DNA of 42,075 nucleotides from positions 1 to 42,075 of the forward strand of contig NZ_SACS01000030.1 of assembly GCF_004005945.1 (NCBI RefSeq), given 5' to 3'. Both the position numbers and the translations under genes were made by a program. The first letter of the stretch is position 1. Each line of letters opens with the position of its first letter. This document shows positions 6,477-36,923 of the stretch, piece after piece. This DNA comes from Rheinheimera riviphila (GTDB taxonomy: Bacteria; Pseudomonadota; Gammaproteobacteria; Enterobacterales; Alteromonadaceae). The notes under the pieces are model-generated. The model was not told where the DNA came from and searched no databases. It saw only the letters and a program-made list of their open reading frames with translations.

Positions 6477-6493
6477 AGCATATTATAATACTA
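6477..6493 (-). promoter_or_regulatory. Candidate operator plus -10 box for the TauE/SafE gene
   Basis: On the minus strand TAGTATTATAA (6493-6483) is followed directly by TATGCT (6482-6477). It matches the operator family seen upstream of the arabinose genes, and the same TATGCT follows the site at 8536. No convincing -35 is visible. Confidence 0.45.
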
Positions 6494-6676
6494 ATTAGCA
6501 AGTTGCTGCTACAGTTGATAAAAAAAGCAGAAATTATTGAAGTTGCTGGAAAAGCATCCGCTTTGGTTGCTGTGGCAAGGCGTGGTTCGGTGGATAATAA
6601 AGAAAATTTGTGCCCAACTTCATCGATGAGCCAGGTTGGCGGCCAACAACCCTACAACTTCAAGGATGAAGGGTAT

Positions 6677-7456
6677 TTACACCCAGCCGCCATCGACAAT
6701 CACCGACTGCGCCGTCAACATCCGGCTATCGTCGGCGGCCAGAAACAATGCCATATCGACAATATCATCCGGCAGTAGCGGTTGTTTAATCGCCTGCTGA
6801 CTTTTGATTTCTTTGACGGTGTTGGCATCAAGCCAGCGCGCCAGTTGCCGCTCAGTCATGACCCAGCCGGGGATCAAGCTGTTGACCCGGATCAGATCTT
6901 CGCCATAACGACCGGCTAAAGTACGGGTCAAGCCTTCAATACCGGCTTTAGCTGTGGTGTAAGCCGGCATACAACTTTGTTTGAGGCGCCAGCTAATGGA
7001 ACCTAAGTTAATAATGCTGCCGCCACCCAATTGTTGCATCTGCGGGATCACCGCTTGTGCGGCAAAAAAATAGTGCCGTAAATTCACCGCAAAGCGGTCA
7101 TCCCAATATTCAACGGTGATTTCTTCGGCCTGGTGGCGGGTGTCATCGGCAGCGTTGTTAATCAACACCGCAATATTGCCAAATTGCTGTTGCGTCTGAG
7201 CGATGCAGGCTTGTAAGGCCGGAATGTCCCGAATATCACAAGGCATAAACAGCGGGGCAGTGCCATCGCCCTGGCGAAGCCTTTCGACCAAAGCGTTGCC
7301 TGCGTCAACAGCAATATCCACAAACGCCACTTTCGCGCCTTGCCAGACAAAACGTTCCACCATGCGCTCACCGATGCCGGTGCCACCACCACTGATAAAA
7401 ACCACTTTATCCCGCAGTGTCGGGTAATTGGCTTTGTGGGTCAGTTGTTGCTGCAT
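6677..7456 (-). CDS. SDR-family sugar 1-dehydrogenase, XylB-like
   Basis: A 259-residue short-chain dehydrogenase. The nucleotide motif is ISGGGTGIGERM, the NNA motif is INNAADDTRHQ, and the catalytic Ser and YxxxK are in LGSISWRL and YTTAKAGIEGLTRTLA. The NLRHYFFAAQAV, SISW and GWVMTERQLARWL segments resemble Caulobacter XylB-type D-xylose dehydrogenase and related L-arabinose/galactose 1-dehydrogenases (from memory, no search). It likely oxidises an aldose to its lactone with NAD(P)+ in the cytoplasm. AGGAA lies 5 nt before the ATG. It sits 87 nt downstream of the GntR regulator gene and is probably co-transcribed. No lactonase or sugar-acid dehydratase is in the window. Confidence 0.8.
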   Translation of the reverse strand: MQQQLTHKANYPTLRDKVVFISGGGTGIGERMVERFVWQGAKVAFVDIAVDAGNALVERLRQGDGTAPLFMPCDIRDIPALQACIAQTQQQFGNIAVLINNAADDTRHQAEEITVEYWDDRFAVNLRHYFFAAQAVIPQMQQLGGGSIINLGSISWRLKQSCMPAYTTAKAGIEGLTRTLAGRYGEDLIRVNSLIPGWVMTERQLARWLDANTVKEIKSQQAIKQPLLPDDIVDMALFLAADDSRMLTAQSVIVDGGWV

Positions 7457-7543
7457 TGCTGTTCCTACATCTTTTGTCAGGCTACGACTTCCGTCACGGT
7501 GCTATTGGCTATCAGCGCAGATGGTCGTGGTATGGGGTAATTT

Positions 7544-8260
7544 TTAACCTTGTTTTTTGATTTCGAGCTCGATAAAGGTTTTTGCTTCATCGATCAGGTA
7601 TTTCATCAAATTTCTGGCCCGCTCCGGCTGGCGGTTGCGGATCGCGGTGTAGATTTTAGCGTGATCGTCAGCCACCGCTAAATCGTTGGCTTTAGCTGGC
7701 GTGGTGTGTTGAATACTGACGTTCAGCGCCGTACTGATAAAGTCGCGCAAGTGCGAGAAAAACCGGTTGCCGCTGGCAAACAGGATGCTGGTATGAAAGG
7801 CCAAATCCGCGTCATGCATGCTGCCGCTGGGATCGTTGGCGGCAGCTTTCATCGCTTCAACGGCTTTGCCAATTTGATCAATATCTTCATCCCGGCCAAA
7901 TTCTGCGGCCAGTGCGGCAGCTTCCGGCTCGATCGCCAGGCGCATTTGCAAAAATTCTTTGAGGACATATAAAGAAGGGCTGCTGCTCAGCAACCATTTT
8001 AATACGCTGGTATCGTACAAATTCCAATTGGAGGGTTGTTCGACACTGATACCCTGGCGTGGCCGTGATGAAATCAGGCCTTTGGCAGCCAGCATTTTGA
8101 CGGCTTCGCGCACCGCGGTGCGGCTGATGCCATATTCTTCACACAACTGGGCTTCTGTCGGTAAGCCAGATTCACAGCTATATTCGCCAGCGACAATGGC
8201 GCGGCCCAGCTCGTTGGTGACCTGCTCGGACAGATTTAAATTTTCGATGATGCGACCCAT
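7544..8260 (-). CDS. GntR-family regulator, FadR (FCD) subfamily; probable arabinose regulator
   Basis: A 238-residue DNA-binding protein. The winged helix-turn-helix (residues about 8-75) has the classic LPTEAQLCEEYGISRTAVRE followed by MLAAKGLISSRPRQG. The C-terminal all-helical FCD domain (about 95-230) contains DADLAFHTSI and VADDHAKIY, which carry the likely metal-binding Asp and His residues of the effector pocket. AGGAG precedes the ATG. The gene is divergent from the sugar symporter, and FadR-type proteins typically bind TTGTnnnnACAA-like palindromes. That pattern recurs upstream of the arabinose genes here. I infer that it is the local arabinose repressor; this has not been shown. 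Confidence 0.85.
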   Translation of the reverse strand: MGRIIENLNLSEQVTNELGRAIVAGEYSCESGLPTEAQLCEEYGISRTAVREAVKMLAAKGLISSRPRQGISVEQPSNWNLYDTSVLKWLLSSSPSLYVLKEFLQMRLAIEPEAAALAAEFGRDEDIDQIGKAVEAMKAAANDPSGSMHDADLAFHTSILFASGNRFFSHLRDFISTALNVSIQHTTPAKANDLAVADDHAKIYTAIRNRQPERARNLMKYLIDEAKTFIELEIKKQG

Positions 8261-8285
8261 GTTGGCTCCTGAATTCCGCTATTGT

Positions 8286-8296
8286 CTGTCATATTA
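8286..8296 (-). promoter_or_regulatory. Weak candidate operator upstream of the regulator gene
   Basis: CTGTCATATTA matches the transaldolase operator TTGTCATATAA at 9 of 11 bases and lies 26 bp before the regulator start codon. Autoregulation is plausible. The match is weak and no good -10/-35 pair is evident. Confidence 0.3.
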
Positions 8297-8535: not shown

Positions 8536-8552
8536 TTGTAATATAATATGCT
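8536..8552 (+). promoter_or_regulatory. Candidate operator and -10 of the symporter-transketolase unit
   Basis: TTGTAATATAA (8536-8546) differs from the perfect palindrome TTGTAATACAA by one base. TATGCT (8547-8552) follows as a possible -10. An alternative -10, TATAAT at 8542-8547, lies inside the operator. Either way a bound repressor would cover the promoter. Confidence 0.6.
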
Positions 8553-8634
8553 TTTACAACAATAACGCGCGTCCAATGCCGGTGGCTACCGCTGAAGGCA
8601 TCACGATGTGCCCAAGCTATGGACGAAGGATATG

Positions 8635-10260
8635 ATGCAACTCAGTACGTTAGATTATCTGGTGCTGGTCGGATTTTTGGTTTTGATGGTCGCAGTGGTG
8701 TGGTACTCGATGCGGCAAAAGGAAGAAGATACCGCCGATTATTTTCTGGCCGGGCGTAACGCCGGTTGGTTGGTGATTGGGGCGTCGATTTTTGCCTCGA
8801 ATATCGGTTCGGAACATTTGGTCGGATTGTCAGGCTCTGGCGCAGCCTCGGGCATGGCGCTGGCGCACTGGGAACTGCAATCCTGGATTATTCTGCTACT
8901 AGGCTGGTTGTTTGTGCCTTTTTACTGGAGTAGCAAGGTCTACACCATGCCGGAATTTCTGGAGCGGCGCTTTAACGCGCAGTCGCGCACTTTCCTGTCG
9001 GTGATTTCGTTGATCAGCTACGTGCTGACCAAAGTGGCAGTGACGGTATACGCCGGTGGCGTGGCATTTCAATCCATTTTGGGCATTGATACGATCTGGG
9101 GCATCGATTTTTTCTGGATATCCGCCGTCGGTCTGGTGTTAATTACCGGACTTTACACCGTGCTCGGCGGCATGAAAGCCATTATGTGGACCTCCGTTTT
9201 ACAAACGCCGATTTTGATTATTGGTTCTGTCGTGATAGTGGTGGTTGGCCTCGATAAAGTCGGTGGTTGGGCTGAAGTCGAACGCATTAATGGCGCCAAT
9301 ATGCATTTAATGCGTGCCACCACCGACGCTGATTTCCCTTGGCCTGGCATTATTTTTGGCTCCTTTATTATCGGTTTTTGGTATTGGTGTACCGATCAAT
9401 ATATTGTGCAACGGGTGTTGTCGGCCAAAGGTATTCAAGCGGCTCGGCGCGGTGCTATTTTTGCCGGTTATTTAAAACTGCTGCCGGTATTTATCTTTTT
9501 GGTACCTGGTTTAATCGCCCATGCGCTGCAGGTCAAAGGCATTATTTCTTACGATAGCCCGGATCAGGCGTTCCCGACGCTAGTGGCGGAACTGCTGCCT
9601 TCTGGTGTGAAAGGTATTGTGATTGGTGGCTTGCTGGCGGCACTGATGAGTTCGCTGGCGTCGTTGTTTAACTCGTCCGCTACGCTTTTTACCATTGATT
9701 TTTATAAGAAATATAAACCTGAATCGAGCGAGCTGCATTTATTAAAAGTCGGCCGTATTGCCACAGTAGTGGTAGTGGTGCTGGGGATTTTGTGGATCCC
9801 GGTGATGAGCCTGATTGCCGACGTGTTGTATGAATATCTGCAAAGTGTGCAGTCGCTGATTGCGCCAGGCATTGCTGCGGTCTTTATGCTCGGTATTTTA
9901 AGTCGGCGCATTACGCCAACGGCCGGTTATGTCGGTTTGGTCAGCGGTTTTGTGCTTGGCATGATCCGGTTGGTGTTGCTGCCGTTTCGCGACTCGTTGC
10001 ACGGTGGCCCGCTGGCCTGGATTGTTGAAATGAACTGGTTGTATTACTGCGTGCTGCTATTTGTGGTGGTCTGCGCGGTGGTGATTTTACTGAGTTTCGT
10101 CACCAAAGCGTCCAGCGACGACAATATTCGCGGCCTGACGGTGCGAAGTCTCGGCAAAGACACCTGGAACGATGTGCGCCAGGGGCTGGATAAATGGGAT
10201 TACATCCATACCGGCGTTATTTTGGGGATCACCGCCTTTATTTATTACCGGTTCTGGTAA
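8635..10260 (+). CDS. Sodium:solute symporter (SSS/SGLT type), probable L-arabinose uptake
   Basis: A 541-residue inner-membrane protein with about 14 hydrophobic segments. ADYFLAGRNAGWLVIGASIFASNIGSEHLVGLSG is the SGLT family signature region, and WYWCTDQYIVQRVLSAK is typical of sugar-specific members. The start at ATG 8635 is preferred over GTG 8608 and ATG 8632 because GAAGGA at 8625-8630 then has usable spacing. The gene is divergent from the GntR regulator and sits upstream of transketolase. The neighbouring araBDA genes make L-arabinose the best substrate guess. A galactose or xylose specificity cannot be excluded from sequence. Confidence 0.88.
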   Translation: MQLSTLDYLVLVGFLVLMVAVVWYSMRQKEEDTADYFLAGRNAGWLVIGASIFASNIGSEHLVGLSGSGAASGMALAHWELQSWIILLLGWLFVPFYWSSKVYTMPEFLERRFNAQSRTFLSVISLISYVLTKVAVTVYAGGVAFQSILGIDTIWGIDFFWISAVGLVLITGLYTVLGGMKAIMWTSVLQTPILIIGSVVIVVVGLDKVGGWAEVERINGANMHLMRATTDADFPWPGIIFGSFIIGFWYWCTDQYIVQRVLSAKGIQAARRGAIFAGYLKLLPVFIFLVPGLIAHALQVKGIISYDSPDQAFPTLVAELLPSGVKGIVIGGLLAALMSSLASLFNSSATLFTIDFYKKYKPESSELHLLKVGRIATVVVVVLGILWIPVMSLIADVLYEYLQSVQSLIAPGIAAVFMLGILSRRITPTAGYVGLVSGFVLGMIRLVLLPFRDSLHGGPLAWIVEMNWLYYCVLLFVVVCAVVILLSFVTKASSDDNIRGLTVRSLGKDTWNDVRQGLDKWDYIHTGVILGITAFIYYRFW

Positions 10261-12389: not shown

Positions 12390-12391
12390 AA

Positions 12392-12635: not shown

Positions 12636-12667
12636 TGTTGAGGCTTGAGGAGTATCTGAAATTGAGT

Positions 12668-13404: not shown

Positions 13405-14361
13405 TCAAACTGCTTTCAACAACTCCTCCAGCTTCTGCTGATCGGCTGCAAACTGCCGAATGCCTTCCAGCAATTTATCCGTGGCCATTGGGTCTTCCAG
13501 CATTTGCCAGCGAAATTCTGCTTCGGTTAATGCGCCGGGCACCTCGATAAAAGGTACATCTGCGTGCAGCTGGCGGATGACAGGTTGATGGCTGTCTGCT
13601 AATTCGGCCAGCAAATTCGGGCTAATCGTCAGGCGGTCACATCCTGCAAGTTGGCGGATTTCTTCGGTATTTCGAAAACTGGCACCCATCACAATGGTGG
13701 GGTAACGATGTTGTTTAAAGTACTGATAGACCTTGCGCACAAACTGCACACCTGGGTCTTGGGCACCAGAAAAATCTGCGTCAGGCTGTTGTTTTTTATA
13801 CCAATCTAAAATGCGTCCAACAAAAGGTGAGATCAAAAAGGCACTGGCTTCGGCACTGGCGCGGGCCTGGGCGAAGCTGAAAATCAGCGTTAAGTTGCAG
13901 CGAATGCCTTGTTGCTCCAGCACGCGGGCGGCCTGAATGCCTTCCCAGGTGGCGGCGACTTTAATCAGCACCCGGCTGGTGTCGGCACCTTGTTGTTGGT
14001 ACAGATCCAGCAACTGATGGGCTTTTTCGATGGTCGCCATGCTGTTAAACGACAGCCTCGCATCTACTTCAGTCGACACATAACCCGGTACCTGTTGCAT
14101 CAGTTGGTGGCCAATCAGTACCGCCAGTTTGTCTGCGGCAAGCGCTATACGCTGCGCTTGAGTCCCATTCGCCAAAGTGCTGGCGGCAAATTGCAGCGCT
14201 TCTGTGGCCAAATGTTGATACTGGCTTTGTTCAATTGTTTTTAAAATCAACGATGGATTGGTGGTGGCATCTTCCGGCTGGTATTGCGCAATCGAGGCGA
14301 AATCGCCGGTATCCGCTACCACTGTGGTCAGTTGTTTCAGCTGGCTTAACTGGTCAGTCAT
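13405..14361 (-). CDS. tal: Transaldolase (class I, TalB type)
   Basis: A 318-residue enzyme of standard TalB length. [10 protein letters not shown] near the N-terminus is the family signature. [21 protein letters not shown] contains the Schiff-base lysine, and [18 protein letters not shown] and [14 protein letters not shown] follow in order. It transfers a dihydroxyacetone unit in the non-oxidative pentose phosphate pathway, complementing the transketolase. I chose ATG 14361 over the longer frame from 14400 because AAGGAA (14368-14373) is correctly spaced and the protein then begins [10 protein letters not shown] as in TalB. It is divergent from araB and shares its control region. Confidence 0.95.
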
Positions 14362-14387: not shown

Positions 14388-14404
14388 ATTTTATTGTCAT
14401 ATAA
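14388..14404 (-). promoter_or_regulatory. Candidate operator and -10 of the transaldolase gene
   Basis: On the minus strand TTATATGACAA (14404-14394) abuts TAAAAT (14393-14388), a good -10. A weak -35, CTGAAT, lies 17 bp upstream (14416-14411). The arrangement matches the TonB receptor and GPH symporter promoters. Confidence 0.55.
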
Positions 14405-14424: not shown

Positions 14425-14458
14425 TTTACAGTCATTTAATGGTGATATTATCATACAA
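14425..14458 (+). promoter_or_regulatory. Candidate promoter and operator of araBDA
   Basis: TTTACA (14425-14430) and TATCAT (14449-14454) form a -35/-10 pair with an 18-bp spacer. TTATCATACAA (14448-14458) is the reverse complement of the site at 32456-32466, TTGTATGATAA, base for base. A repressor bound here would cover the -10. Confidence 0.6.
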
Positions 14459-14500: not shown

Positions 14501-16201
14501 ATGTCGCATTACGTGATTGGACTGGATTACGGCTCGGACTCGGTTCGGGCTTTATTGGTCGATACCGCCGATGGCCGTGAACTGGCGAGCCATGTGGTGA
14601 ACTATCCACGCTGGGCGAAAGGGCTGTATTGCGCGCCGCAGTTGGATCAATTCCGCCAGCATCCACAAGATTACTTAGACGGTCTGGAGCAAGTGCTGCA
14701 AGGCCTGTGGCTACAAGCGCCGGCTGGCAGCGCCGCCAAAGTGATTGGTTTAAGTGTCGATACCACGGGTTCAACGCCGGTCGCGATTAACCAAGACGGC
14801 GTGGCACTGTCGTTATTGCCAGAATTTGCTGAAAACCCGAATGCGATGTTTGTGCTGTGGAAAGACCACACCGCAGTGGAAGAGGCGGCGGAAATTACAG
14901 CTGCAGCTAATGCGAACGCTAACATCAATTATCTCAAATTTATGGGCGGCATTTATTCCTCCGAATGGTTCTGGGCCAAAGCGCTGCATGTGCTGCGGCA
15001 GGACCCGCAAGTACGCGCTGCGACTTATAGTTTTGTCGAACATTGTGACTGGATCACCGCTGTGCTCAGCGGGACCACAGCCCCAGCTGATTTCCGGATG
15101 GGCCGCTGCGCCACCGGTCATAAAATGATGTGGCATCAAAACTGGGACGGCTTCCCGCCCAATGCATTTTTTAAAGCGATTGACCCGTTGTTAGATGGGT
15201 TAGTCGACACACTGAACCCAGACACCCGCACCTCGGATTTATGCGCTGGCCGGTTAACTGTCGACTGGGCAGAAAAATTGGGTTTACCGCGGGGCATTGC
15301 CATTGGTTATGGCGCTTTTGATTGCCATATGGGCGCAGTCGCCGCCAAGGTTCGCCCTGGCGTGCTGACCAAAGTGATGGGCACCTCGACCTGCGATATT
15401 ACGGTCGCCGATCCAACACTGCTCGGCGACAAAACCGTGCCGGGTATTTGTGGTCAGGTTGATGGTTCGGTCGTACCGGGCATGATAGGCCTGGAAGCAG
15501 GGCAGTCGGCCTTTGGCGATTTATATGCCTGGTTTCGCGACCTGCTGAGCTTTCCGCTGTCGTTAGTGCCAGGTTTACCAGCCGACAGTATTGCCGCGGC
15601 CGAAGATCACATCATTGGCGCTTTATCCAAAGCTGCGGCTGAGCTTAAACCCGGCCAAAACGGCCTGACGGCGCTGGATTGGGTGAACGGTCGGCGTACA
15701 CCTGATGCCAGTCAGCGCGTCAGTATGGCCATTATGGGTTTGAAAATGGGTAGCACAGCACCGCATATTTTCCGCGCTTTAGTAGAAGCCACTGCCTTTG
15801 GCTCGCGCGCCATTAATGAGCGCTTTCGTGCCCAAGGCGTGCCGGTTGATTCAATTACGGTGATTGGTGGTATTTCGAAAAAGTCGCCGCTGGTGATGCA
15901 AATTTGCGCCGATGTCTGGAACTGCGACATCGACGTGCTGGAAAGTGAACAAAGTTGTGCCTTAGGTGCAGCGATTTTTGCTGCTGTCGCTGCCGGAGCT
16001 TTTCCAAATGTCGCTGCTGCGCAAGAGGTGATGGCGTCACCGGTCTGCCAAACCTATCAGCCGCAGCCGGAGCTGGTGCCAGTGTATGACAAGTTATATG
16101 CGCAATATCAGCAGCTTGGTGAATTTGTTGAAGGACAGAGTAAGCAGCAAAGCAAGCTGAAAAACAACGCTGCAACACAAGCCGCAGGAGTATCCGCATG
16201 A
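14501..16201 (+). CDS. araB: Ribulokinase
   Basis: A 566-residue FGGY-family kinase, the same length as E. coli AraB. GLDYGSDSVRALLVDTADG opens the first actin-like domain. GAFDCHMGAVAAKV and KVMGTSTCDI are central AraB motifs, GLEAGQSAFGDLYAWF follows, and GGISKKSPLVMQICADVW is the C-terminal ATP-site motif. It phosphorylates L-ribulose to L-ribulose 5-phosphate with ATP in the cytoplasm. It is first in the araB-araD-araA operon and its TGA overlaps the araD ATG. The C-terminal tail is Gln/Ala rich. Confidence 0.96.
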   Translation: MSHYVIGLDYGSDSVRALLVDTADGRELASHVVNYPRWAKGLYCAPQLDQFRQHPQDYLDGLEQVLQGLWLQAPAGSAAKVIGLSVDTTGSTPVAINQDGVALSLLPEFAENPNAMFVLWKDHTAVEEAAEITAAANANANINYLKFMGGIYSSEWFWAKALHVLRQDPQVRAATYSFVEHCDWITAVLSGTTAPADFRMGRCATGHKMMWHQNWDGFPPNAFFKAIDPLLDGLVDTLNPDTRTSDLCAGRLTVDWAEKLGLPRGIAIGYGAFDCHMGAVAAKVRPGVLTKVMGTSTCDITVADPTLLGDKTVPGICGQVDGSVVPGMIGLEAGQSAFGDLYAWFRDLLSFPLSLVPGLPADSIAAAEDHIIGALSKAAAELKPGQNGLTALDWVNGRRTPDASQRVSMAIMGLKMGSTAPHIFRALVEATAFGSRAINERFRAQGVPVDSITVIGGISKKSPLVMQICADVWNCDIDVLESEQSCALGAAIFAAVAAGAFPNVAAAQEVMASPVCQTYQPQPELVPVYDKLYAQYQQLGEFVEGQSKQQSKLKNNAATQAAGVSA

Positions 16202-16905: not shown

Positions 16906-16906
16906 T

Positions 16907-16932
16907 TCTGGCTCGCCTGTTCAGCGGCCAGA
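16907..16932 (+). other. Intercistronic hairpin between araD and araA
   Basis: TCTGGC (16907-16912) pairs with GCCAGA (16927-16932) around a 14-nt loop in the 54-nt gap. No T-run follows. It may shield or separately stabilise the araA message. Confidence 0.35.
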
Positions 16933-16959
16933 TCTGAAACTAATTTTGAGGAAATTCAA

Positions 16960-21577: not shown

Positions 21578-21591
21578 GGAAGGATGGACCC

Positions 21592-26193: not shown

Positions 26194-26200
26194 AACACAG

Positions 26201-26234: not shown

Positions 26235-26256
26235 GTAATCCGGTCTGCTTAGGCTG

Positions 26257-27960: not shown

Positions 27961-27977
27961 TTGTAATACAATACTTT
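27961..27977 (+). promoter_or_regulatory. Perfect operator and -10 of the PEP-CTERM/arabinanase unit
   Basis: TTGTAATACAA (27961-27971) is a perfect palindrome around its central A, extended to ATTGTAATACAAT. TACTTT (27972-27977) follows directly as a possible -10. This is the best single copy of the operator family. Confidence 0.62.
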
Positions 27978-28240: not shown

Positions 28241-28891
28241 ATGAACAAAGCATCTTTACGCTGCTGGTTGCCGTTATTGCTGGGATTCAGCGGTTTCAGC
28301 CAGGCCAGCATTCTCAATCCGGATTTTAGTCAGGGGTTTGAGCATTGGCAGGCGCAAGTCAGCCAGTTTGATCCGGCAGCCAATGAGTCTTCGGCTCAAA
28401 GTGGCAGTATCGCGGGCTTGTTTCCGGAAAGTTTTAGTCTGGCGGGCAATAGCCTGACGCTTAGCACCGCTTATCAGCAAGATTTAGAAAACTGGAGCCT
28501 GGTGTTATTTCAGGATCTGCAATTTGATGTGCTCGCGAGTGGTCAAAGCCTGTGGTTGTCGCTGAGCGTGTTGTCCTGGCTTAGCAGCGCTGATGATTTT
28601 TATTTTGCCCAGCTGCGTGACCTTGCCACCGATGACGTGCTGGATTTAACCGCTGGCGGCAGCTTTGACATCAGTAGTTGGACAGGTCGGGCGTTGACGC
28701 TGGAATTTGGCTTGCAGGATAACGATTTTCAGCTCGGTGATATGTTGACCGTCAGCGATTTAAATCTACGCATAGCCAACAACGCAGTGCCAGCACCAGC
28801 GACAGCGTTGTTATTGCTGCCGGCGTTATGGCTGCTGCGTCGTGGCGGTGTCGGCTCCGCAGTTGGTGCAGTGCAGGAGCAACAATCATGA
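28241..28891 (+). CDS. PEP-CTERM-like sorted exported protein
   Basis: A 216-residue protein with a signal peptide (residues about 1-23, ending SQAS). A beta-rich body begins ILNPDFSQGFEHWQAQV, reminiscent of carbohydrate-binding jelly-roll domains. The C-terminal tripartite tail is VPAPATALLLLPALWLLRRGG: a PxPAT motif, a membrane segment and basic residues. This is the layout recognised by exosortase/archaeosortase-type enzymes. AGGAG precedes the ATG. The stop overlaps the arabinanase ATG by 4 bp, so both are made together. It may hold or present arabinan at the cell surface (inference). No exosortase gene is in the window. Confidence 0.75.
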   Translation: MNKASLRCWLPLLLGFSGFSQASILNPDFSQGFEHWQAQVSQFDPAANESSAQSGSIAGLFPESFSLAGNSLTLSTAYQQDLENWSLVLFQDLQFDVLASGQSLWLSLSVLSWLSSADDFYFAQLRDLATDDVLDLTAGGSFDISSWTGRALTLEFGLQDNDFQLGDMLTVSDLNLRIANNAVPAPATALLLLPALWLLRRGGVGSAVGAVQEQQS

Positions 28892-31800
28892 TCCAGCCAT
28901 TACAAAAATTTTGGCTCAGCCTGCTGTTGACACCGCTGGCTTTGGCCGCAGCCTTGAACAGCCCTCAGGCGCATGCCAACTGGCAACTGGCGCCTGAAGC
29001 AAAAATAAGCCAAGGTGCCAAAGTAGCGGTGCGTAATGTGGGTTATTACACCGACAATAAAATTACTTTAACGCCGGTGCCGACAGCGCCGCTGCGCCTG
29101 GTGGTGCTAAACAGCAGTTACGCCGTCACCAATGCTGATGGTTTGGACGAAAGCGGCCGGCCCTATTTTCAGGTGACCGATATCGCCAAAGCGGTGCGGA
29201 TTTATTTCGCCAATAGCCGTGGTGCTTTTAGTTACAGCACTGCGCTTTATCAGCAGCAAGACCCGAACCAGCCGGATCCAACCCTGGCCGGGCCAGTGAA
29301 TTATCAAAATGCTTCAGTGCATGACCCATCGGTGATCCGGCTCGACGACGGCCAGTTTTATGTATTTGGCTCGCATTTAGCTGCGGCGAAAAGCCCGGAT
29401 TTACTGAACTGGACCAAAATTTCCGATGGCGTCGATAACAACAATCCGCTGTTTGCCACTTACGCCAGCGAAGCGGCTGAAGGCATTGCCTGGTCCGGTG
29501 ACCATATGGGGTCCTGGGCGGCGGATGTCATTCAACTGGCTGATGGGAAATATTATTTTTACTACAACCACTGCGCCTCGCCGGAAAATGGCGAATGTGA
29601 TTCGTCGCGCTCTTACCTCGGTTTAGCCGTTTCCAGCAATATTGAAGGCCCGTATCAAAACTTAGGGTTATTTCTGAAAAGCGGCCATCGCGGCAGTGAA
29701 AACCCTGGCATCGACGGCAACAACTACAACGGCAATATTCACCCCAATGCCATTGATCCGGATGTGTTTTTTGATAAAACCGGCCGCTTGTGGATGGTGT
29801 ATGGGTCATATTCTGGCGGTATTTGGGTGATGGAATTAAGTCCAAGCACCGGTTTCCCGCTGCCAGGCCAGGGTTATGGCACCAAAATTATGGGTGGTTA
29901 TTACAGTGCGATTGAAGGCCCTTACATGCTGTATAGCCCGGAGTCGGATTACTACTACCTGTTTACCTCCTTTGGCGGTTTTGCCCAAAACGATGGTTAC
30001 AACATGCGCATCGCCCGGTCGCGTAATCCACAAGGACCATTCCTGGACGCTGAAGGCCGCAATATGATTGGCGCATCTGGTGGCTGGTCGTCGATTGCAC
30101 CCTTTGGCGTGAAAATCATGGGCGGCCATTTATTTGATGCCCATCCTGGCGATCCGGGCACGGATCACGGTTATATGGCGCCTGGCCATAACTCGGCTTA
30201 CTTTGACGTCGCTACCGGCAAACATCTGTTAATTTTACATACCCGTTTCCCGGATCGTGGTGAAGGCCATGAAATTCGGGTGCATGAAATGTTTGTCAAT
30301 GCCGATGGCTGGTTGGTGGCTTCGCCACATCGTTACACACCGATGCAGGGTGCTAATGTGGTGGACCCAGTGGATGTGCAAGGCGTGTATCAGCTGATCC
30401 TCCATGGCAAAGATATCAACCGCACTGTGCATAAATCGACCTATCTGCGCCTGGAAAACGGTGTAGTGAGCGGCGCTTATAGCGGCAGTTATCAGTTGCT
30501 GGCGGATAATCAGATCAGCTTGCAGTTGGCGGGTGTTGGTACGCTCAAAGGCGTGCTGGCCTGGCAATACAACGAAAACCTGCAGCAATTAGTACCGACT
30601 TTCAGTGCGTTATCAGCAACGGGCGAAGCGGTGTGGGGCAGTCGGTTACCGCCGCAAACCAATGCGCAAGTGCTGCAGGCAGTGTCTGATGCGCTGAATT
30701 TACCAGCTGCAACCACCACCGATTTAACCTTGCCGGTATTGGGGGCGCAAGGCGCACAAATTCTGTGGAGCTCCAGCTCGCCCATGGTGATCAACACCTC
30801 GGGCCGGGTTGAACGCCCTGCTGCCGGAAGTGCGGATCAACAAGTGGTGTTGCAAGCGACGATTTCGCTCGATGGCGCTACTGTGACCAAAACCTTTACG
30901 GTACTGGTCAAAGCCAGAACACCGCTTAATCGCACTGCCTGGTATCGGTTTGAGCAAAACCTTGTCGACAGCACCGGTCGCTTGGCCAATGGCAATGCCA
31001 CCGGCGCCCGTCCTGATAGCAGCGGCACTGTGCAATTTGTCGCCGGTCATGCCGGTTCGGCACTGCAGCTAAATGGCAATAACGGCGTGCGGTTACCCGA
31101 TGGGCTGATTAATAGTTCTGAATACACCGTCTCCCTGTGGTTAAACCCGGCCGCTTTGACCCAGTTCACCACGGCGTTTTTTGGCGCAGCATCGCCGGAT
31201 AACTGGATCAGTCTGGTGCCCAATAGCTGGGATCAAAACACCATGCTGTGGAGTGGCTCGCAAGCCTGGTTTGATGGGAGCGCCGGCATGCGTATTCCGC
31301 TTTTGCAATGGAGTCATGTGGCATTTAGCGTCAAACAAGGCCAATTACGGTTATATATCAACGGCGTGCAGCGTTTTAGCGGCAACAATCTGCGGGACTT
31401 TTTCAGCAATAGCCAAGGCTTGTTTACCTTAGGCATTAATTACTGGGATATCCCATTCCAGGGGCTGATTGATGAATTGGCGATTTATGAAACGGCACTC
31501 ACGGCCGCGGAAATTCAGGCGCTGGATATCGACCGCTTAACCGACGCTCAATTGCTGCAATCGGCAGTCAATCAGCTAGATTTGGGCGACATCAGCGCCG
31601 TTCGTTCGGATTTGGTAATGCCGCGTAGTGGCGCTTATGCTGCCGTGATCGCCTGGCAATCCAGTGATGAAAGCACCATTCATCTGGATGGCAAAGTGGT
31701 GCGTCCTGGTATTGATGAGCCGGATCAGCAAGTGACGTTAACGGCAACGGTGACGCTGAACGGTCAACTGCTGCAGCGTGAGTTTGTGGTGACGGTGCGA

Positions 31801-32439
31801 TCGTTAGCACCGCCGGTACCGGTCGCGCACTTTAGCTTTGACGGGCAAAATCTGTTGGATGCAACCGGCAACTTTGCCAGTGGTAGCAGCACTGCGGCAA
31901 GGCTGGATCAAGCCGGTGGCAGTTTAAGTTATCAGGCGGGTGTGGTTGGCCAGGCGCTGCGTTTGAATGGCAGCTCTGGTGTGCGGTTACCGGATAATCT
32001 GCTGACCGATCATAGCTATACCGTGACGATGTGGTTAAATCCGGAAGCCTTAACCAATTTCAGCACGGCATTTTTTGGTTATGCCAATCTCAGCAGCTGG
32101 ATAAGTGTGGTACCACGCGGTCATGGTGGTGTCGGCGAAAACACCATGCTCTGGTCAGGCACTGCCTGGTATGACGCGGGTATGGGACAACGCATTGCGC
32201 TGAATAGCTGGTCGCATCTGGCGGTGGTGGTGAAAAACGGTGAGTTGACCCTGTACCTCAACGGTCAGCAACGCTTTAGTGGCAACGGTTTCCCGAATGT
32301 ATTTGGCGCAGCCGGGACTAAAGGGTTTGGCCTGGGCGTAAATTTCTGGGATACACCTTATAAAGGTTTGCTCGATGAAGTGCGGATCTATGGCGAGGCG
32401 ATTACCGCCGAGGAAGTGCAGCAACTGTCGCAGCCATAA
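28888..32439 (+). CDS. Large secreted GH43 endo-arabinanase with duplicated Ig-like/LamG modules
   Basis: A 1183-residue secreted enzyme. Signal peptide about 1-31 (ends AHA). N-terminal beta domain about 32-135. GH43 propeller about 140-470: base Asp in VHDPSVIRL, NAIDPDVFFDKTG, acid Glu in YSAIEGPYML, with AKSPDLLNWTKIS typical of Abn2/YxiA-type endo-1,5-arabinanases. A further beta domain about 475-590 follows. Then come two copies of an Ig-like module plus a LamG/concanavalin module (about 593-872 and 885-1183). ATG 28888 overlaps the upstream stop (ATGA) and follows AGGAG. It would cut the arabinan backbone outside the cell, with the repeated modules binding polysaccharide (inference). 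Confidence 0.88.
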   Translation: MIQPLQKFWLSLLLTPLALAAALNSPQAHANWQLAPEAKISQGAKVAVRNVGYYTDNKITLTPVPTAPLRLVVLNSSYAVTNADGLDESGRPYFQVTDIAKAVRIYFANSRGAFSYSTALYQQQDPNQPDPTLAGPVNYQNASVHDPSVIRLDDGQFYVFGSHLAAAKSPDLLNWTKISDGVDNNNPLFATYASEAAEGIAWSGDHMGSWAADVIQLADGKYYFYYNHCASPENGECDSSRSYLGLAVSSNIEGPYQNLGLFLKSGHRGSENPGIDGNNYNGNIHPNAIDPDVFFDKTGRLWMVYGSYSGGIWVMELSPSTGFPLPGQGYGTKIMGGYYSAIEGPYMLYSPESDYYYLFTSFGGFAQNDGYNMRIARSRNPQGPFLDAEGRNMIGASGGWSSIAPFGVKIMGGHLFDAHPGDPGTDHGYMAPGHNSAYFDVATGKHLLILHTRFPDRGEGHEIRVHEMFVNADGWLVASPHRYTPMQGANVVDPVDVQGVYQLILHGKDINRTVHKSTYLRLENGVVSGAYSGSYQLLADNQISLQLAGVGTLKGVLAWQYNENLQQLVPTFSALSATGEAVWGSRLPPQTNAQVLQAVSDALNLPAATTTDLTLPVLGAQGAQILWSSSSPMVINTSGRVERPAAGSADQQVVLQATISLDGATVTKTFTVLVKARTPLNRTAWYRFEQNLVDSTGRLANGNATGARPDSSGTVQFVAGHAGSALQLNGNNGVRLPDGLINSSEYTVSLWLNPAALTQFTTAFFGAASPDNWISLVPNSWDQNTMLWSGSQAWFDGSAGMRIPLLQWSHVAFSVKQGQLRLYINGVQRFSGNNLRDFFSNSQGLFTLGINYWDIPFQGLIDELAIYETALTAAEIQALDIDRLTDAQLLQSAVNQLDLGDISAVRSDLVMPRSGAYAAVIAWQSSDESTIHLDGKVVRPGIDEPDQQVTLTATVTLNGQLLQREFVVTVRSLAPPVPVAHFSFDGQNLLDATGNFASGSSTAARLDQAGGSLSYQAGVVGQALRLNGSSGVRLPDNLLTDHSYTVTMWLNPEALTNFSTAFFGYANLSSWISVVPRGHGGVGENTMLWSGTAWYDAGMGQRIALNSWSHLAVVVKNGELTLYLNGQQRFSGNGFPNVFGAAGTKGFGLGVNFWDTPYKGLLDEVRIYGEAITAEEVQQLSQP
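30664..32437 (+). repeat. Intragenic tandem duplication: two Ig-like plus LamG units
   Basis: Unit 1 (about 30664-31505) and unit 2 (about 31540-32437) encode matching blocks. Examples are VRLPDGLINSSEYTV with VRLPDNLLTDHSYTV, NTMLWSG in both, and LGINYWDIPFQGLIDE with LGVNFWDTPYKGLLDE. Roughly half of the residues agree by eye, so the duplication is old. Confidence 0.8.
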
Positions 32440-32455
32440 GTAACCGAACATATAT

Positions 32456-32466
32456 TTGTATGATAA
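32456..32466 (+). promoter_or_regulatory. Candidate operator upstream of the third GH43 gene
   Basis: TTGTATGATAA is the exact reverse complement of the araB operator. It lies 54 bp before the gene. TATGAT (32459-32464) inside it could serve as -10; no clear -35 is seen. Confidence 0.5.
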
Positions 32467-32519
32467 TTTAAAGGCGCCGAAGCAGATATTTGCCAAGGCG
32501 CCAGTTTCGAGGGAATTTG

Positions 32520-33497
32520 ATGAAAAAGCATTTATGTCGTCTAACCGCAATCGCTGCCATAGTGTTGACGGCTGTCAGCGCACCGCTACATGCCAAAAAT
32601 CCAGTGTTTGATCATGTATTTACCGCAGATCCGGCGGCGATGGTGCATGGCGATACCGTGTATTTATTTACCGGCCACGATGAAGCGCCGCATAACGACA
32701 AATTTTTTGAAATGCATGACTGGTTGTTATTTAGCTCGAAAGATATGAAAACCTGGCAATCCCATGGCGCTGTGTTAAAAGCCACCGATTTTAACTGGGC
32801 TAAAGGCGATGCCTGGGCGGCGCATGCTATTGAACGCAATGGCAAATTTTACTTTTATACCACGGTAAGACACAAAGACGACAAGCCCGGTTTTGCTGTG
32901 GGGGTGGCAGTCGCAGATAGTCCGTTGGGTCCTTATAAAGACGCGATTGGTAAAGCGTTAATCACCAACGAGATGACCACCCAGACTAAAAACGACTGGG
33001 ACGATATCGATCCGGCGGCTTTTATCGACGACGATGGTCAGGCTTATCTGTTTTTTGGCAATAGCGTACCCAAATACGTCAAGTTAAAGGCCAGTATGAC
33101 CGAGTTAGACGGCGAGATTAAAGTCATTGCTTTAAAAGACTTTACCGAAGCCTTGTGGCTACATAAAAAAGATAAAACCTATTATCTTTCATATGCCTGC
33201 GAGTTCCCGGAAAAAATCTGTTATGCCAAAAGTCAAAGCATTCACGGCCCCTGGCAATACGGCGGCATCTTGAATGAAATTGCTGGTAATAGCGAAACCA
33301 ATCACCAGTCGATTATTGAATTCAAAGGCCAATCGTATTTTATTTACCACACCGGCGCTTTGCCGCCTAAAGATGGCCCAAACGGTGAAGAGCCAAGTGG
33401 CGGACGCTTTCGCCGTTCAGTCGCCATCGATCTTTTGCACTATAACCCGGACGGTTCGTTAAAACGGGTGCTCATGACCAGCGAAGGTATTCGCTAA
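32520..33497 (+). CDS. Secreted GH43 glycosidase (arabinosidase/xylosidase type)
   Basis: A 325-residue protein with a signal peptide (MKKHLCRLTAIAAIVLTAVS, cleavage after LHA). It is a single GH43 propeller: catalytic base Asp in VFTADPAAMV, modulating Asp in NDWDDIDPAAFIDDDG, and likely acid Glu in DFTEALWLHKK. GNSETNHQSI forms a later blade. ATG 32520 is chosen because GAGGGA (32509-32514) is correctly spaced; the frame from 32490 would precede the signal peptide. It probably trims arabino-oligosaccharides in the periplasm. The subfamily is uncertain, and xylosidase activity is possible. Confidence 0.87.
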   Translation: MKKHLCRLTAIAAIVLTAVSAPLHAKNPVFDHVFTADPAAMVHGDTVYLFTGHDEAPHNDKFFEMHDWLLFSSKDMKTWQSHGAVLKATDFNWAKGDAWAAHAIERNGKFYFYTTVRHKDDKPGFAVGVAVADSPLGPYKDAIGKALITNEMTTQTKNDWDDIDPAAFIDDDGQAYLFFGNSVPKYVKLKASMTELDGEIKVIALKDFTEALWLHKKDKTYYLSYACEFPEKICYAKSQSIHGPWQYGGILNEIAGNSETNHQSIIEFKGQSYFIYHTGALPPKDGPNGEEPSGGRFRRSVAIDLLHYNPDGSLKRVLMTSEGIR

Positions 33498-33523
33498 AAC
33501 AACCACTTTTAGTAAATAAATCA

Positions 33524-33558
33524 TTGGTTTAAAACTAAAAAATTAAGTTTTAAACCAA
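33524..33558. other. Perfect 13-bp AT-rich hairpin between GH43 and TonB receptor genes
   Basis: TTGGTTTAAAACT (33524-33536) pairs with AGTTTTAAACCAA (33546-33558) without mismatch around a 9-nt loop. It ends 12 bp upstream of the receptor -35 box. There is no clear terminator tail on the plus strand. It could be an mRNA 3' end or a second regulator site. Confidence 0.5.
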
Positions 33559-33570
33559 GTGAATCTTTGA

Positions 33571-33599
33571 TTGACAGCTCATTAGTCATACAATAGTAT
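33571..33599 (+). promoter_or_regulatory. Promoter of the TonB receptor with embedded operator
   Basis: Consensus -35 TTGACA (33571-33576) and -10 TAGTAT (33594-33599) are exactly 17 bp apart. Operator-like TAGTCATACAA (33583-33593) fills the spacer and abuts the -10. Confidence 0.72.
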
Positions 33600-33790
33600 T
33601 ATAGCTATAAAGATTTGACAGTGTCGGTTTTGCAGTGATATCAATGCAGATCTGACAAATGGACAAAGCAGTAAAAAAAATAAGCCAAAAAAGCCCGGGC
33701 AGTACAGGGTTGGTTCCTGCAGCGCAACGAAGCGTTAGCTTCTGGCAGCGAAGGAACAAAGGCATACAAATCAACGACGGGAGACGACCC

Positions 33791-36646
33791 ATGTTTAAGA
33801 AAAGCCATTTGTCCAGCGCTATCCTGCTGGTTCTGACCGGCCAGTTTGCTTATGCGCAGGAAACCAACACATCAGCGGCAGATAACCAAGCCGCTAAAAA
33901 AGATAAAACTGAAGCAGTTGAAGTGATCCAGGTGCGCGGGATCCGCGGCAGTCTGAATAAAGCTTTAGGTATCAAAAGATTAAACGAACAAATTGTTGAT
34001 TCAATTGTTGCCGAAGATATCGGCAAGTTCCCGGATAATAACGTAGTGGAGTCGTTGCAACGGGTGACCGGTGTGCAGGTGACCAACCGTGGATCCGGCG
34101 AAGTTTCTGGCGTGTCGATCCGGGGTTTAAGTGATATCACCACCACCGTTAACGGCCGTAATATTTTCACCGCTGCCGGCACTGCCGTGGCGCTGCAGGA
34201 CATTCCTGCCAGTTTATTAAAACAAGTGGCCGTGTATAAAACCCGTTCCGCCAGTCAGATTGAAAGTGGCATTGCCGGCGCCATTGACGTAAAAACCCAT
34301 CGCCCATTCGATTTTGAAGGCTCGAAGTTTATTGTGTCTGGCCGTGGTATTTACAACGAACAAAATGATGCCACCAATCCGGCCATCAGCGCTTTGGCTA
34401 GCGATCGCTGGGATACCGCTCAGGGTCAGGTTGGTGCTTTGGTGAATTTGTCATTTTCGCGGATCCGCTATCGTGATCAAAGCGTGACCGCTGGCGCGAT
34501 GGTGCCTTTTATGACCGAATCAACCACCGCACTTTTTACACCGTTTGAACGGGTGTGGCCAAACCGGGGTGGCGTCAGTGAAGATCCAATCTGGCAAGCT
34601 GGTTTGCTCGAAGGTTTGCCATCAGCCGCAGGTTCTACTTTTAACATTAATGGCAAGCCAACCGCTTATATGTTAGGCCGGGATGCGATTTTCCAAAGTG
34701 ATTACAATGGCGAGCGCGAACGTCCGGCAGCAAACGTGTCGTTCCAGTTTTCACCCAATGAAAACGCTGAATATGTGTTTGAAACATTCTACAACGGTTA
34801 CCGCAACGAAGGTTTTAACAGCTTATTGTTCTCGTTCGCCGATTGGTGGGGTGACTATGCCGGGATGAATCCATCACAGGCTGCAGCTGCGGCGAATGTG
34901 GTGTATCACCCTGGCACCAATATCGTGAAATCGCGTTCAGTGTTGCATCCGTGGGTCTTTACCAGCGGTGACTTATCGACCGGTAAAACCGACAGTATGT
35001 TGTACGCCTTTGGCGGTAATTGGCAGCTCAATGAAGACATGAGCCTGAAATCGGAAATCGTCTATCAGTCCAGTAAATACGAAAGTGACTTCTTTGCCAT
35101 GCGCTTTGTGCGTCCGGGTAATAACTACAAATTGAACGTCGACTTTAACCAAAATGACGGTATGCCTGGGTTTGGTTTTGAAGATGATCCGGCCACTGCG
35201 GCTGTGGATGAATCGACCATGGCCGAAGCATCTGCTTACCTGATTGACGGCATGTACGACAATGCCAACAGTGATGAAGGCGACGCCGTTACCTTGACCT
35301 CGGATTTGTCTTACAGTCTGGCTGGCTTTTTCACCAAAGTTGAAACCGGTATCCGTTACGACAAACGGGGTGCGGAAACTGCCTTCAGCCGCCAGGATCG
35401 TTGTTGTGGTGGTGGCCGGAACGTCGCGTCTATTGAGGGTTTAGCTTCAATCAACAGCGGTTTTATGGATGGCGAAGCACAGGTGCCAACGTCGTGGGTG
35501 GTGGCCAATGGTCATCATATCCGCGCCAATGCGGATGAATTCCGTACTTTGTATGGCATGAGCAAACTGGGGCTCAACCGTTCTTTTGACATTGAATCCA
35601 CCACCTTGTCGGCTTATGTGCAGGGTAAATACGAAACTGAGCTGGCTGGCCGTACCCTGGATGGTGAAATTGGTTTACGTTATACCGGCATCGATACCGA
35701 TTCGAAGTTTTATCAGGAAACCGCGCCTGGTGTGCCGCAGCCAATGACGCTGGGAGAGAGTAAAACCCGTACTTTATTGCCAAGTCTGACCCTGCGTTAT
35801 GAACTGATGGATGACTTGCAAATGCGTTTGGCTTATACCGAAACGCTGCGTTACCCGTCGTTTGGTGATTTAAACCCGCTGATTATTTATAACGAAGACG
35901 TCACTGGTATTGGTTATGGTACTGCCGGTGGTGGTAACCCTGATTTAAAACCAACTGAATCAACCAACTATGACTTTGCGTTGGAATGGTATTTTGCCGA
36001 TTCCAGCTCGTTATACGGCACTTTGTTCCGTCGTGATGTGGAAGGTTTTGTGGTGGGTTTCCGCCGTGCCGTAACGCATGACAAATCAGCGACTGATCCA
36101 ACGCCGTACAAATTTATCTTGAGCCAGCCGTACAACGCTTCGAACGGTGATATTTCCGGTGCCGAGCTTGGTTTAGTCTGGTTCCCGGACAATTTACCGC
36201 CGGTATTAGATGGTTTTGGCGTACAGGCGAGTTACACCGTGCTGTCATCGTCACAAACCACGCCGGATACCAACTCGGCCGGTGATATCACTGGCTACAA
36301 AGATACCGATGTATTTGGCGTGTCAGATTCGTCGTACAGCATGGTGTTGGCGTATGACAAAGATAAGTTAGGTATGCGTTTATCGTATTCATGGCGTGAA
36401 GATTTCCTCGCCAACTACGAAGCCGCTTTGTTCGCCAACCCATTGGAAATGCGCCGCCGTCCTGAGTCCAGTATGGATTTCCAGCTGAGTTATCAGGTCA
36501 CCGACAACTTTGAAGTCACTGTCGACGGGACCAACCTGACGAATGAGGTGTATCAGAGTTATTACGGTAATAACGCGACCACCAATAACTTTGGCACTTC
36601 GTTGTATAGCCGGACCTTTGCCTTAGGTGTGCGTTATTCGATGTAA
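33791..36646 (+). CDS. TonB-dependent outer membrane receptor (TIGR01782-like), arabinan oligosaccharide uptake
   Basis: A 951-residue receptor. Signal peptide about 1-24 (ends AYA). The plug domain (about 45-175) has IQVRGIRGSLNKALGIKR, DIGKFPDNNVVESLQRVTGV and VSIRGLSDITTTVNGR. The rest is a long beta-barrel ending LGVRYSM; a final Met in place of the usual aromatic residue is unusual. ATG 33791 is preferred over the frame start at 33659 because GGGAG and the signal peptide fit it. Such receptors import glycans with TonB energy. Placement among arabinanases and a matching operator make arabino-oligosaccharides the likely cargo. Confidence 0.92.
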   Translation: MFKKSHLSSAILLVLTGQFAYAQETNTSAADNQAAKKDKTEAVEVIQVRGIRGSLNKALGIKRLNEQIVDSIVAEDIGKFPDNNVVESLQRVTGVQVTNRGSGEVSGVSIRGLSDITTTVNGRNIFTAAGTAVALQDIPASLLKQVAVYKTRSASQIESGIAGAIDVKTHRPFDFEGSKFIVSGRGIYNEQNDATNPAISALASDRWDTAQGQVGALVNLSFSRIRYRDQSVTAGAMVPFMTESTTALFTPFERVWPNRGGVSEDPIWQAGLLEGLPSAAGSTFNINGKPTAYMLGRDAIFQSDYNGERERPAANVSFQFSPNENAEYVFETFYNGYRNEGFNSLLFSFADWWGDYAGMNPSQAAAAANVVYHPGTNIVKSRSVLHPWVFTSGDLSTGKTDSMLYAFGGNWQLNEDMSLKSEIVYQSSKYESDFFAMRFVRPGNNYKLNVDFNQNDGMPGFGFEDDPATAAVDESTMAEASAYLIDGMYDNANSDEGDAVTLTSDLSYSLAGFFTKVETGIRYDKRGAETAFSRQDRCCGGGRNVASIEGLASINSGFMDGEAQVPTSWVVANGHHIRANADEFRTLYGMSKLGLNRSFDIESTTLSAYVQGKYETELAGRTLDGEIGLRYTGIDTDSKFYQETAPGVPQPMTLGESKTRTLLPSLTLRYELMDDLQMRLAYTETLRYPSFGDLNPLIIYNEDVTGIGYGTAGGGNPDLKPTESTNYDFALEWYFADSSSLYGTLFRRDVEGFVVGFRRAVTHDKSATDPTPYKFILSQPYNASNGDISGAELGLVWFPDNLPPVLDGFGVQASYTVLSSSQTTPDTNSAGDITGYKDTDVFGVSDSSYSMVLAYDKDKLGMRLSYSWREDFLANYEAALFANPLEMRRRPESSMDFQLSYQVTDNFEVTVDGTNLTNEVYQSYYGNNATTNNFGTSLYSRTFALGVRYSM

Positions 36647-36647
36647 A

Positions 36648-36774
36648 TTTCCCCGTCATCCTTGACGTTGTAGGGTTGTTGCCTTCAGTCGCTCGCCCCA
36701 GTCACATAGTAAACTATGCTCCTGGGGTCTCGCTCCTTCGGCGCCTACCTACAACGTCAATGATTTAGGGGAAA
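36648..36774. repeat. 127-bp hairpin element, copy 1
   Basis: Outer arms TTTCCCC/GGGGAAA (7 bp) are followed by an unpaired 7x7 internal loop (GTCATCC opposite TGATTTA), an inner arm TTGACGTTGTAGG with perfect complement (13 bp), and a conserved apex with CCCCAG...CATAG...CTATG...CTGGGG. It begins 2 bp after the receptor stop codon. It shares layout and apex, but not arm sequence, with 39394-39521. Confidence 0.8.
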
Positions 36775-36816
36775 TATCTAATGTGTTGTGTGTAGTGTGT
36801 TGTAAGTAGGAACTTC

Positions 36817-36856
36817 GCCCCGGCAGTCAATATGTGTTCTGACCGGGGCTTTTTTT
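36817..36856 (+). terminator. Rho-independent terminator after the TonB receptor
   Basis: GCCCCGG (36817-36823) pairs with CCGGGGC (36843-36849), extended by CAG/CTG with one bulge, and is followed by seven T residues. Confidence 0.85.
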
Positions 36857-36894
36857 AGTAGTGAGCAGGATTGCTGTGCCATTGGCAAAAAAGC

Positions 36895-36923
36895 TTGTCG
36901 GCTCATTTATCCTACAATATTAT
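36895..36923 (+). promoter_or_regulatory. Promoter of the GPH symporter unit with embedded operator
   Basis: TTGTCG (36895-36900) and TATTAT (36918-36923) are 17 bp apart. TTATCCTACAA (36907-36917) abuts the -10, exactly as in the TonB receptor promoter. Confidence 0.65.

Follow-up and report, generated by a model that had tools for sequence, protein, structure and literature searches.

The arabinan/arabinose cluster and its candidate operators

The stretch of DNA analysed here (the window) is a complete contig of Rheinheimera riviphila, NZ_SACS01000030.1, of 42,075 bp, or 0.9% of a genome of 4,745,991 bp. Profile searches with Pfam and NCBIfam models identify it as an arabinan/arabinose gene cluster, which is conserved in relatives. 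Nine short elements of the TTGTAnTACAA type are found at its genes, and very probably they are the operators of one FCD-type GntR repressor, encoded at 7544-8260, that blocks the promoters and is released by an arabinose-derived effector. The genes concerned are as follows.

5731..6432, minus strand: TauE/SafE-family membrane protein, with its own putative operator (PF01925, E 3.7e-24)
6677..7456, minus strand: SDR dehydrogenase, AraY-like, directly 3' of gntR; nearest to D-xylose 1-dehydrogenase XylB (NF053674, 319 bits, under the model's cut-off of 400 bits)
7544..8260, minus strand: GntR/FadR-subfamily (FCD) regulator, the proposed repressor (PF00392, E 4.4e-18; PF07729, E 1.1e-24)
8632..10260, plus strand: SSS-family sodium/solute symporter (PF00474)
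10374-12389: transketolase, behind the SSS gene
13405..14361, minus strand: transaldolase (PF00923), start corrected to 14361
14501..18489, plus strand: araB, araD and araA (L-ribulokinase, L-ribulose-5-phosphate 4-epimerase and L-arabinose isomerase models)
20276..23469, plus strand: aldose-1-epimerase (araM-like) and GH43 (PF01263, PF04616)
28241..41980, plus strand: arabinan degradation block, with an unknown protein (hyp28), two GH43, a TonB-dependent receptor (TBDT), a GPH transporter, GH43 and GH127

The original prediction had tied ten 11-bp sites into a single arabinose regulon under the local GntR protein. All ten 11-mers are present where it placed them, the copy at 27961 is a perfect palindrome, and those at 14448 and 32456 are exact reverse complements of each other, as it had said. 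Membership of one operator family held for nine of them, listed here with scores and ranks (among 42,059 window positions) from the matrix described below; the tenth, at 8286, dropped out.

6483..6493, minus strand: putative operator upstream of the TauE-family gene; 21.2 bits, rank 3; a site in all TauE regions outside the genus (32/32 at 8 bits or more); conserved in three Rheinheimera relatives
8536..8546, plus strand: putative operator of the SSS gene, between the divergent SSS and gntR genes and containing TATAAT; 25.4 bits, rank 1; conserved in three Rheinheimera relatives and in genome G044
14394..14404, minus strand: putative operator upstream of transaldolase; 16.4 bits, rank 7; the corrected start, 14361, is 38 nt away
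14448..14458, plus strand: putative operator of araBDA; 18.6 bits, rank 5; identical TTATCATACAA in three relatives
20216..20226, plus strand: putative operator of the aldose-1-epimerase gene; 21.2 bits, rank 4; within a mechanical open reading frame (ORF), whose likely start lies 55 nt downstream, at 20276
27961..27971, plus strand: putative operator upstream of hyp28-GH43, the perfect palindrome; 22.2 bits, rank 2; conserved in three relatives
32456..32466, plus strand: putative operator between two GH43 genes; 16.9 bits, rank 6
33583..33593, plus strand: putative operator of the TonB-dependent receptor; 11.1 bits, rank 11; core conserved in three relatives
36907..36917, plus strand: putative operator of the operon of GPH-type transporter (MFS), GH43 and GH127; 12.9 bits, rank 9; upstream of TATTAT; conserved in three relatives

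Between site centre and start codon as called there are 29-275 nt, a distance that depends on the choice of start for the GH43 gene behind 32456 (GH43c, likely start 32520) and for the TBDT gene, where a later ATG is possible. The rejected candidate, 8286..8296 on the minus strand, scores -8.6 bits and ranks 638 of 42,059; its region holds a 20-bp element common to the three Rheinheimera relatives and not to G044, which by eye is likely to be part of the gntR core promoter instead. Among the remaining high-ranking matches, rank 8 overlaps the 20216 site, and two were treated as chance: 13213 (12.4 bits, rank 10), at the end of the ParE ORF, and 12508 (10.8 bits), for which there is no gene logic.

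Motif statistics and promoter architecture

A loose search of the window, allowing up to two mismatches to TTGTANTACAA, finds 30 matches where 16.7 are expected (standard deviation 3.8), a number reached by none of 100 shuffles. Nine of the ten claimed sites are among the 30 and 8286 is absent, but an excess of this kind does not tell which matches are real. The motif was also derived de novo from other organisms. Training used 34 of 38 loci with an orthologue of the GntR protein, Rheinheimera and near-identical bins being left out, and drew on the DNA upstream of cluster homologues, 213 regions in all and 185 once overlaps were removed. Expectation maximisation with a palindrome constraint, started from 15-base words drawn from the regions, gave TATTgTAaTAcAATa / TATTGTAATACAATA as its best motif, which is of the TTGTAnTACAA type; an AT-rich shifted palindrome came second. 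A 17-column matrix built from the 185 regions and seeded with this consensus was then scanned over the 42,059 window positions. Although trained without the window or its genus, it places the nine sites at ranks 1-7, 9 and 11. The nine top scores sum to 169, against a mean of 99.9 and a maximum of 155.9 for column-permuted matrices (0/2,000 reach 169), and nine claimed sites are among the top 11, where the permuted matrices place 0.8 on average and never more than 7. It counts for less that all of the top nine are noncoding, since 53 of the 2,000 permuted matrices share this property. Noncoding matches of at least 11 bits number 11; 500 dinucleotide shuffles gave 0.77 on average and 5 at most. 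The gene list used for this count was without the ParDE pair, so 13213 entered it as noncoding. A search of all 4,745,991 bp of the genome with the strict pattern WTTRTANTAYAAW gives 3 matches, every one of them within the window. The reversed control pattern gives 4, so it is the location of the pattern and not its number that is special.

The arrangement of the sites suggests how they might act. When 74 distinct sites from loci outside the genus are read in gene orientation, the 3' half-site is TATAA in 50 and TACAA in 13, with T as the next base in 97%, and the 5' half-site retains GTA or ATA (T 0.99 and A 0.99, with only G or A before them). One half-site thus usually appears to double as the -10 hexamer, and the sites would mostly be operator plus -10 box, which amends the picture of free-standing palindromes in the original prediction. 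Two sites were read individually by eye: that of the TBDT gene (33583) fills the 17-bp spacer from TTGACA to TAGTAT, and that of the MFS gene (36907) precedes TATTAT. An operator lying over the -10 box or in the -35/-10 spacer is predicted to occlude RNA polymerase. The same right half-site, mostly followed by T, together with the AT-rich runner-up of the motif search, could be read as a sign that the motif is merely the sigma-70 -10 box (TATAAT/TACAAT) of AT-rich promoters and no operator at all. We consider this very improbable: a -10 box leaves unexplained a left half that is equally constrained at its core, WTTRTANTAYAAW is confined to the window, the araB promoters of four genomes with neither type of GntR regulator (see below) are without the motif, and at hyp28 the palindrome stands, by eye, downstream of the putative -10 box.

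In the mechanism that we favour, the nine sites would be operators of one repressor, the GntR protein of 7544-8260, and the regulon would take in arabinan breakdown, uptake, AraBDA catabolism, transaldolase, the epimerase and the TauE-family membrane protein. A repressor dimer would bind the TTGTAnTACAA-like repeats, which lie either over the -10 box or within the -35/-10 spacer, and so keep RNA polymerase out, in the way that DgoR acts at the dgo promoter of E. coli. It would be released by an effector derived from arabinose and bound at a metal site in the FCD domain (D152/H156/H200). Motif, positions, conservation, specificity within the genome and co-occurrence with the regulator and AraA were computed; that the protein binds the sites, that it represses rather than activates, and what the effector is, we infer from these.

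The GntR protein as candidate binder

If the sites are operators they should accompany arabinose genes in other organisms, as the original prediction expected, and in large part they do. Counting as a site any score of at least 8 bits in the upstream region, sites are found outside the genus in 32/32 TauE regions, 13/13 MFS, 36/41 SSS (the homologues counted include paralogues of 31-35% identity) and 27/30 of the GH43 gene labelled GH43d, as well as in 2/2 transketolase, 1/1 transaldolase and 1/2 GH43c regions. Genes expected to lie inside operons are without them (araY 0/27, GH127 0/11). Closer to home, six of the nine sites (TauE, SSS, araB, hyp28, TBDT and MFS) can be seen by eye in three Rheinheimera relatives with few changes. 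The comparison leaves out 20216, for which the extracted upstream region fell in the HAD gene; at GH43c (32456) only an (A/G)TACAATATGA element is retained in the relatives, and the palindrome at 14394 has no visible counterpart there, both by eye. The transketolase gene of the three relatives (L033, L035, L036) has a perfect site of its own, TTGTAATACAA or TTGTATTACAA; the window's transketolase gene, now behind the SSS gene, has no such perfect site.

The regulator follows the pathway in a similar way. Orthologous GntR loci were found in public genomes at 38 places (L039-L076, 61-89% identity), and in 36 of the 38 the locus has the TauE gene and in 36 the SDR dehydrogenase adjoins gntR. Five of 79 genomes have AraA, and orthologues of at least 73% identity are found in these five and no others; in a 394-genome sample of the order, the seven genomes with an orthologue of at least 71% are those with the seven best AraA matches among 84 AraA carriers. 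A second, distant GntR (33-34% identity to the window type) is found in loci L160, L161, L162 and L169. It is present in 11 of the 394 genomes, none shared with the seven carriers of the window type, and 7 of the 11 have AraA. In a tree, the window type falls into a single clade (96/90), whose neighbours are paralogues of 45-54% identity; the second type stands far off, on a long branch whose placement calls for caution.

The araB promoter connects both regulators with the motif. The best matrix score in the 250 bp upstream of araB is 16.1, 19.1, 19.1 and 20.1 bits in genomes with the window-type regulator and 20.9, 20.9, 16.9, 16.3, 17.8 and 11.2 bits in those with the second type, compared with 9.9, 5.9, 1.1 and 2.2 bits in genomes with neither (a fifth such genome, L164, gave no araB match). 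A site of at least 16 bits is therefore present in 9/10 genomes with either GntR and in 0/4 with neither, and among the ten carriers the p values from mononucleotide shuffles run from 0.0005 to 0.035, with L171 and L165 as exceptions. It would appear, then, that two distant regulators use the same family of operators. Taken together, the de novo motif, its conservation gene by gene, the co-occurrence of regulator and AraA and the araB sites that track GntR support the single regulon and the GntR protein as its natural binder.

The protein itself has the features of such a binder. Its winged helix-turn-helix and its FCD domain are both present, as in the FadR subfamily, and the de novo motif is a palindrome with GT and AC three bases apart, the spacing described for FadR-subfamily operators (PMC4494728). 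A structure model (mean pLDDT 83.2, pTM 0.67) and a Foldseek search, in which the 50 matches listed have TM values of at most 0.61 apart from one domain-only match (TMt 0.82), confirm the FCD/FadR class and no more. Among the titles listed in a literature search on arabinose and AraR or GntR regulators in Alteromonas, Pseudoalteromonas and Rheinheimera, none is on this regulator.

Two other proteins might bind the sites instead: a LysR protein (25294-26193) within the cluster, and a GntR paralogue elsewhere in the genome that adjoins a 2-keto-3-deoxy-galactonokinase (DGOK) gene. Both exist in this genome, and the paralogue is of the same family, at 51-52% identity. The SDR-LysR-SDR group to which the LysR gene belongs (24397-27006) looks like an insertion; it has no homologue above 35% identity in the cluster stretches of the four nearest relatives, and for LysR there are only weak matches of 26-30% in some other loci. 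The paralogue type occurs also in six of the 79 genomes that are without AraA, and in G011 and G044 solely the ara-linked type passes 1e-60. Many paralogue-type promoters show a TATGATAT-like element by eye instead, although two (L121 and L125) do show TTATCATACAA, and expectation maximisation on the paralogue group yielded only GC-rich or AT-rich artefacts. Elements of 10.3-15.5 bits beside the DGOK-linked paralogue and glpK (L030) are probably other promoters. That either of these proteins is the true binder seems very unlikely, and comparative genomics supports the FCD-type GntR of 7544-8260 as the best candidate, much as the original prediction had it; the binding itself we infer.

Several results weigh against this assignment or against the regulon as drawn. 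First, the training loci are partly redundant, with many near-duplicate Pseudoalteromonas. Second, the looser pattern TTRTMNKAYAA is not enriched genome-wide (64 places, control 76), with at least 7 places in the window among the 50 of the 64 listed; the motif is not enriched overall, but it is concentrated in the window. Seven stretches elsewhere in the genome, around looser matches, reach at best 12.3 bits, at a position within an ORF; outside these, the genome was covered by pattern search only. Third, conservation outside the genus fails at some genes: TBDT upstream regions have no site (0/10), nor do those of GMC (0/2), GH43big (0/2) and HAD (0/1), and only 1/5 epimerase regions have one. 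Control of the TBDT gene looks lineage-specific or hidden by start calls. Separate GntR upstream regions reach 8 bits in 1/6 cases, that one being L071, with no SSS gene on its contig; gntR has no convincing operator at its own start, and its autoregulation is no more than conceivable. Fourth, the araB site of L171 lies within the range of shuffles (p 0.09), and L165, which has the second GntR, is without a good araB site (11.2 bits, p 0.57). Fifth, 4 of the 11 second-type genomes (G374, G061, G085 and G104) have no AraA at 1e-100. Finally, the DGOK-linked paralogue in the same genome, of 51-52% identity, could cross-bind. On a separate point, the four genomes just named may use the oxidative arabinose route.

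The cluster is interrupted by other genes. Those of toxin-antitoxin type stand between arabinose units at 12638-13218, 19343-19741 and 27336-27659 (ParD/ParE, a PIN-domain protein and a RelB match just under its cut-off). The PIN gene lies between the HAD gene and the epimerase gene, which here has its own putative operator at 20216. A gene for ribosomal protein L31 (PF01197) is found at 23751-24014, in the middle of the arabinose cluster. A dispersed repeat starting TAGGGCGTACTC occurs in gaps and near both contig ends, at 7-24, 18532-18549, 24328-24345, 27227-27244, 41989-42006 and 42053-42070 (6 matches, 1.24 expected), and may account for the contig breaks. Among the orthologous loci, JAIXXN010000081.1 (L039) is labelled as an Oxalobacteraceae metagenome-assembled genome, yet it has a Rheinheimera-like cluster with a GntR 88% identical to that of the window, perhaps through a binning error.

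The possible effector and comparison with known systems

The closest working model, by analogy, is DgoR of E. coli, a FadR-subfamily repressor of the dgo operon whose operator IR1 includes TTGTAGTACAA and overlaps the promoter of that operon (PMC12288454). The window regulator shares with it the FCD/FadR architecture, an operator core of the TTGTAnTACAA type and operators that overlap promoters. Its best PDB match, at 98 bits only, is 7c7e, the DgoR C-terminal domain, in which a metal site (D146/H150/H195) is described through which the acid is held (PMC7674646). In an alignment to 7c7e these residues correspond to D152/H156/H200, and the triad is found in all 37 sequences compared, paralogues included, and is invariant in a separate 11-sequence alignment. 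Of the residues that DgoR needs to bind galactonate, R102 aligns with R107 and is retained, W181 is replaced by T187 and T191 by V196 (V/I), and R224 lies beyond the alignment. The two regulators also differ in reach: the window regulator would have nine sites over about 30 kb at arabinan/arabinose genes, and DgoR has two at one promoter. Family scans found no dgo genes among the window proteins that they covered.

As effector, L-arabonate, which the SDR dehydrogenase behind gntR would make, is our tentative proposal, at a little under even odds and at least as strong as L-arabinose. It is put forward as the signal on three grounds, each of which also speaks against L-arabinose itself in that role: the metal triad by which DgoR holds a sugar acid is retained; a dehydrogenase that would yield L-arabonate or its lactone follows directly behind gntR (in 36/38 loci, as noted); and an L-arabonate-dehydratase homologue at 1e-60 is lacking in 8/9 tested genomes with the window-type regulator, this one included, being present in G044. 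Without that dehydratase the SDR is left with no obvious catabolic role. The effector need not, then, be L-arabinose, as the original prediction had taken it to be. A correct regulon and binder with L-arabinose as the effector is nevertheless possible, if on balance somewhat unlikely, and it has evidence of its own, in that the regulated genes of known function serve the use of arabinan or arabinose or the pentose phosphate steps that follow, and the changed pocket residues (T187, V/I196) imply that the ligand is not simply galactonate. No lactonase of the SMP-30 type is among the scanned window proteins; the gene after TauE encodes one in 2/3 far loci tested, and the genome has 7 lactonase-family (SGL) matches elsewhere, so an arabonolactonase is possible.

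A wider proposal would join these strands. In Rheinheimera and other Alteromonadales, the arabinose regulon would be governed by a sensor of sugar acids that descends from a galactonate repressor like DgoR; the dehydrogenase would make the L-arabonate signal from a little L-arabinose, the TauE-family protein would dispose of L-arabonate, and the operators would have outlived a swap at araB between two distant FCD regulators (33-34% identity) in related genomes. As a whole we regard this as doubtful.

GntR-type control of arabinose genes is known from other bacteria. In Bacillus subtilis, AraR likewise has a GntR-type DNA-binding domain and an arabinose regulon (PMC4494728); its sensor domain is of the LacI/GalR type, whereas the window protein has FCD and belongs to another subfamily. 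In Halomonas, AraR2 is a GntR-family regulator assigned to L-arabinose/L-arabinonate genes, and, compared by description only, it differs in serving an oxidative pathway with a TRAP transporter (PMC5507952). The nearest parallel is AraR-II of Shewanella, described as a regulator of the GntR type that controls an araBAD-araY-araM-TBDT-GPH locus, most ara operons having predicted sites (Rodionov 2010, PMC2996990), a distribution of sites that is also found here. The same work proposes AraY as an L-arabinose 1-dehydrogenase and describes incomplete oxidative-route genes beside araBAD (a dehydrogenase, a lactonase and a dehydratase, without the remaining genes). It is the second GntR type whose loci resemble that system: the gene order of L160, L161, L162 and L169 fits the AraR-II locus as described, and L161 has an ILVD/EDD dehydratase, a XylB-like SDR and a YtfQ/YtfR-like ABC transporter. 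These loci, assigned to AraR-II by gene content only, differ from the window in the dehydratase and ABC transporter, in that no SSS or TauE homologue was matched, and in a GntR of 33-34% identity on a separate long branch, which speaks against orthology. The window regulator thus appears to be of another lineage than the GntR of the arabinose regulon known from Shewanella. The kind of system is already known; the new parts would be the regulator lineage, the match to the DgoR operator and a possible sugar-acid signal.

For a genus that has been little studied, the analysis yields a regulon map of an arabinan-degrading cluster. The map is tied to a regulator lineage with a DgoR-type operator and metal site, and it raises the question of whether the signal is a side-product sugar acid rather than the sugar. 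If so, the incomplete oxidative genes that Rodionov described beside Shewanella araBAD, of which only the dehydrogenase is left here, would gain a function. If two distant regulators do act on one operator family, AraR-II-like loci and the present cluster would together represent a clean natural replacement of one regulator by another.

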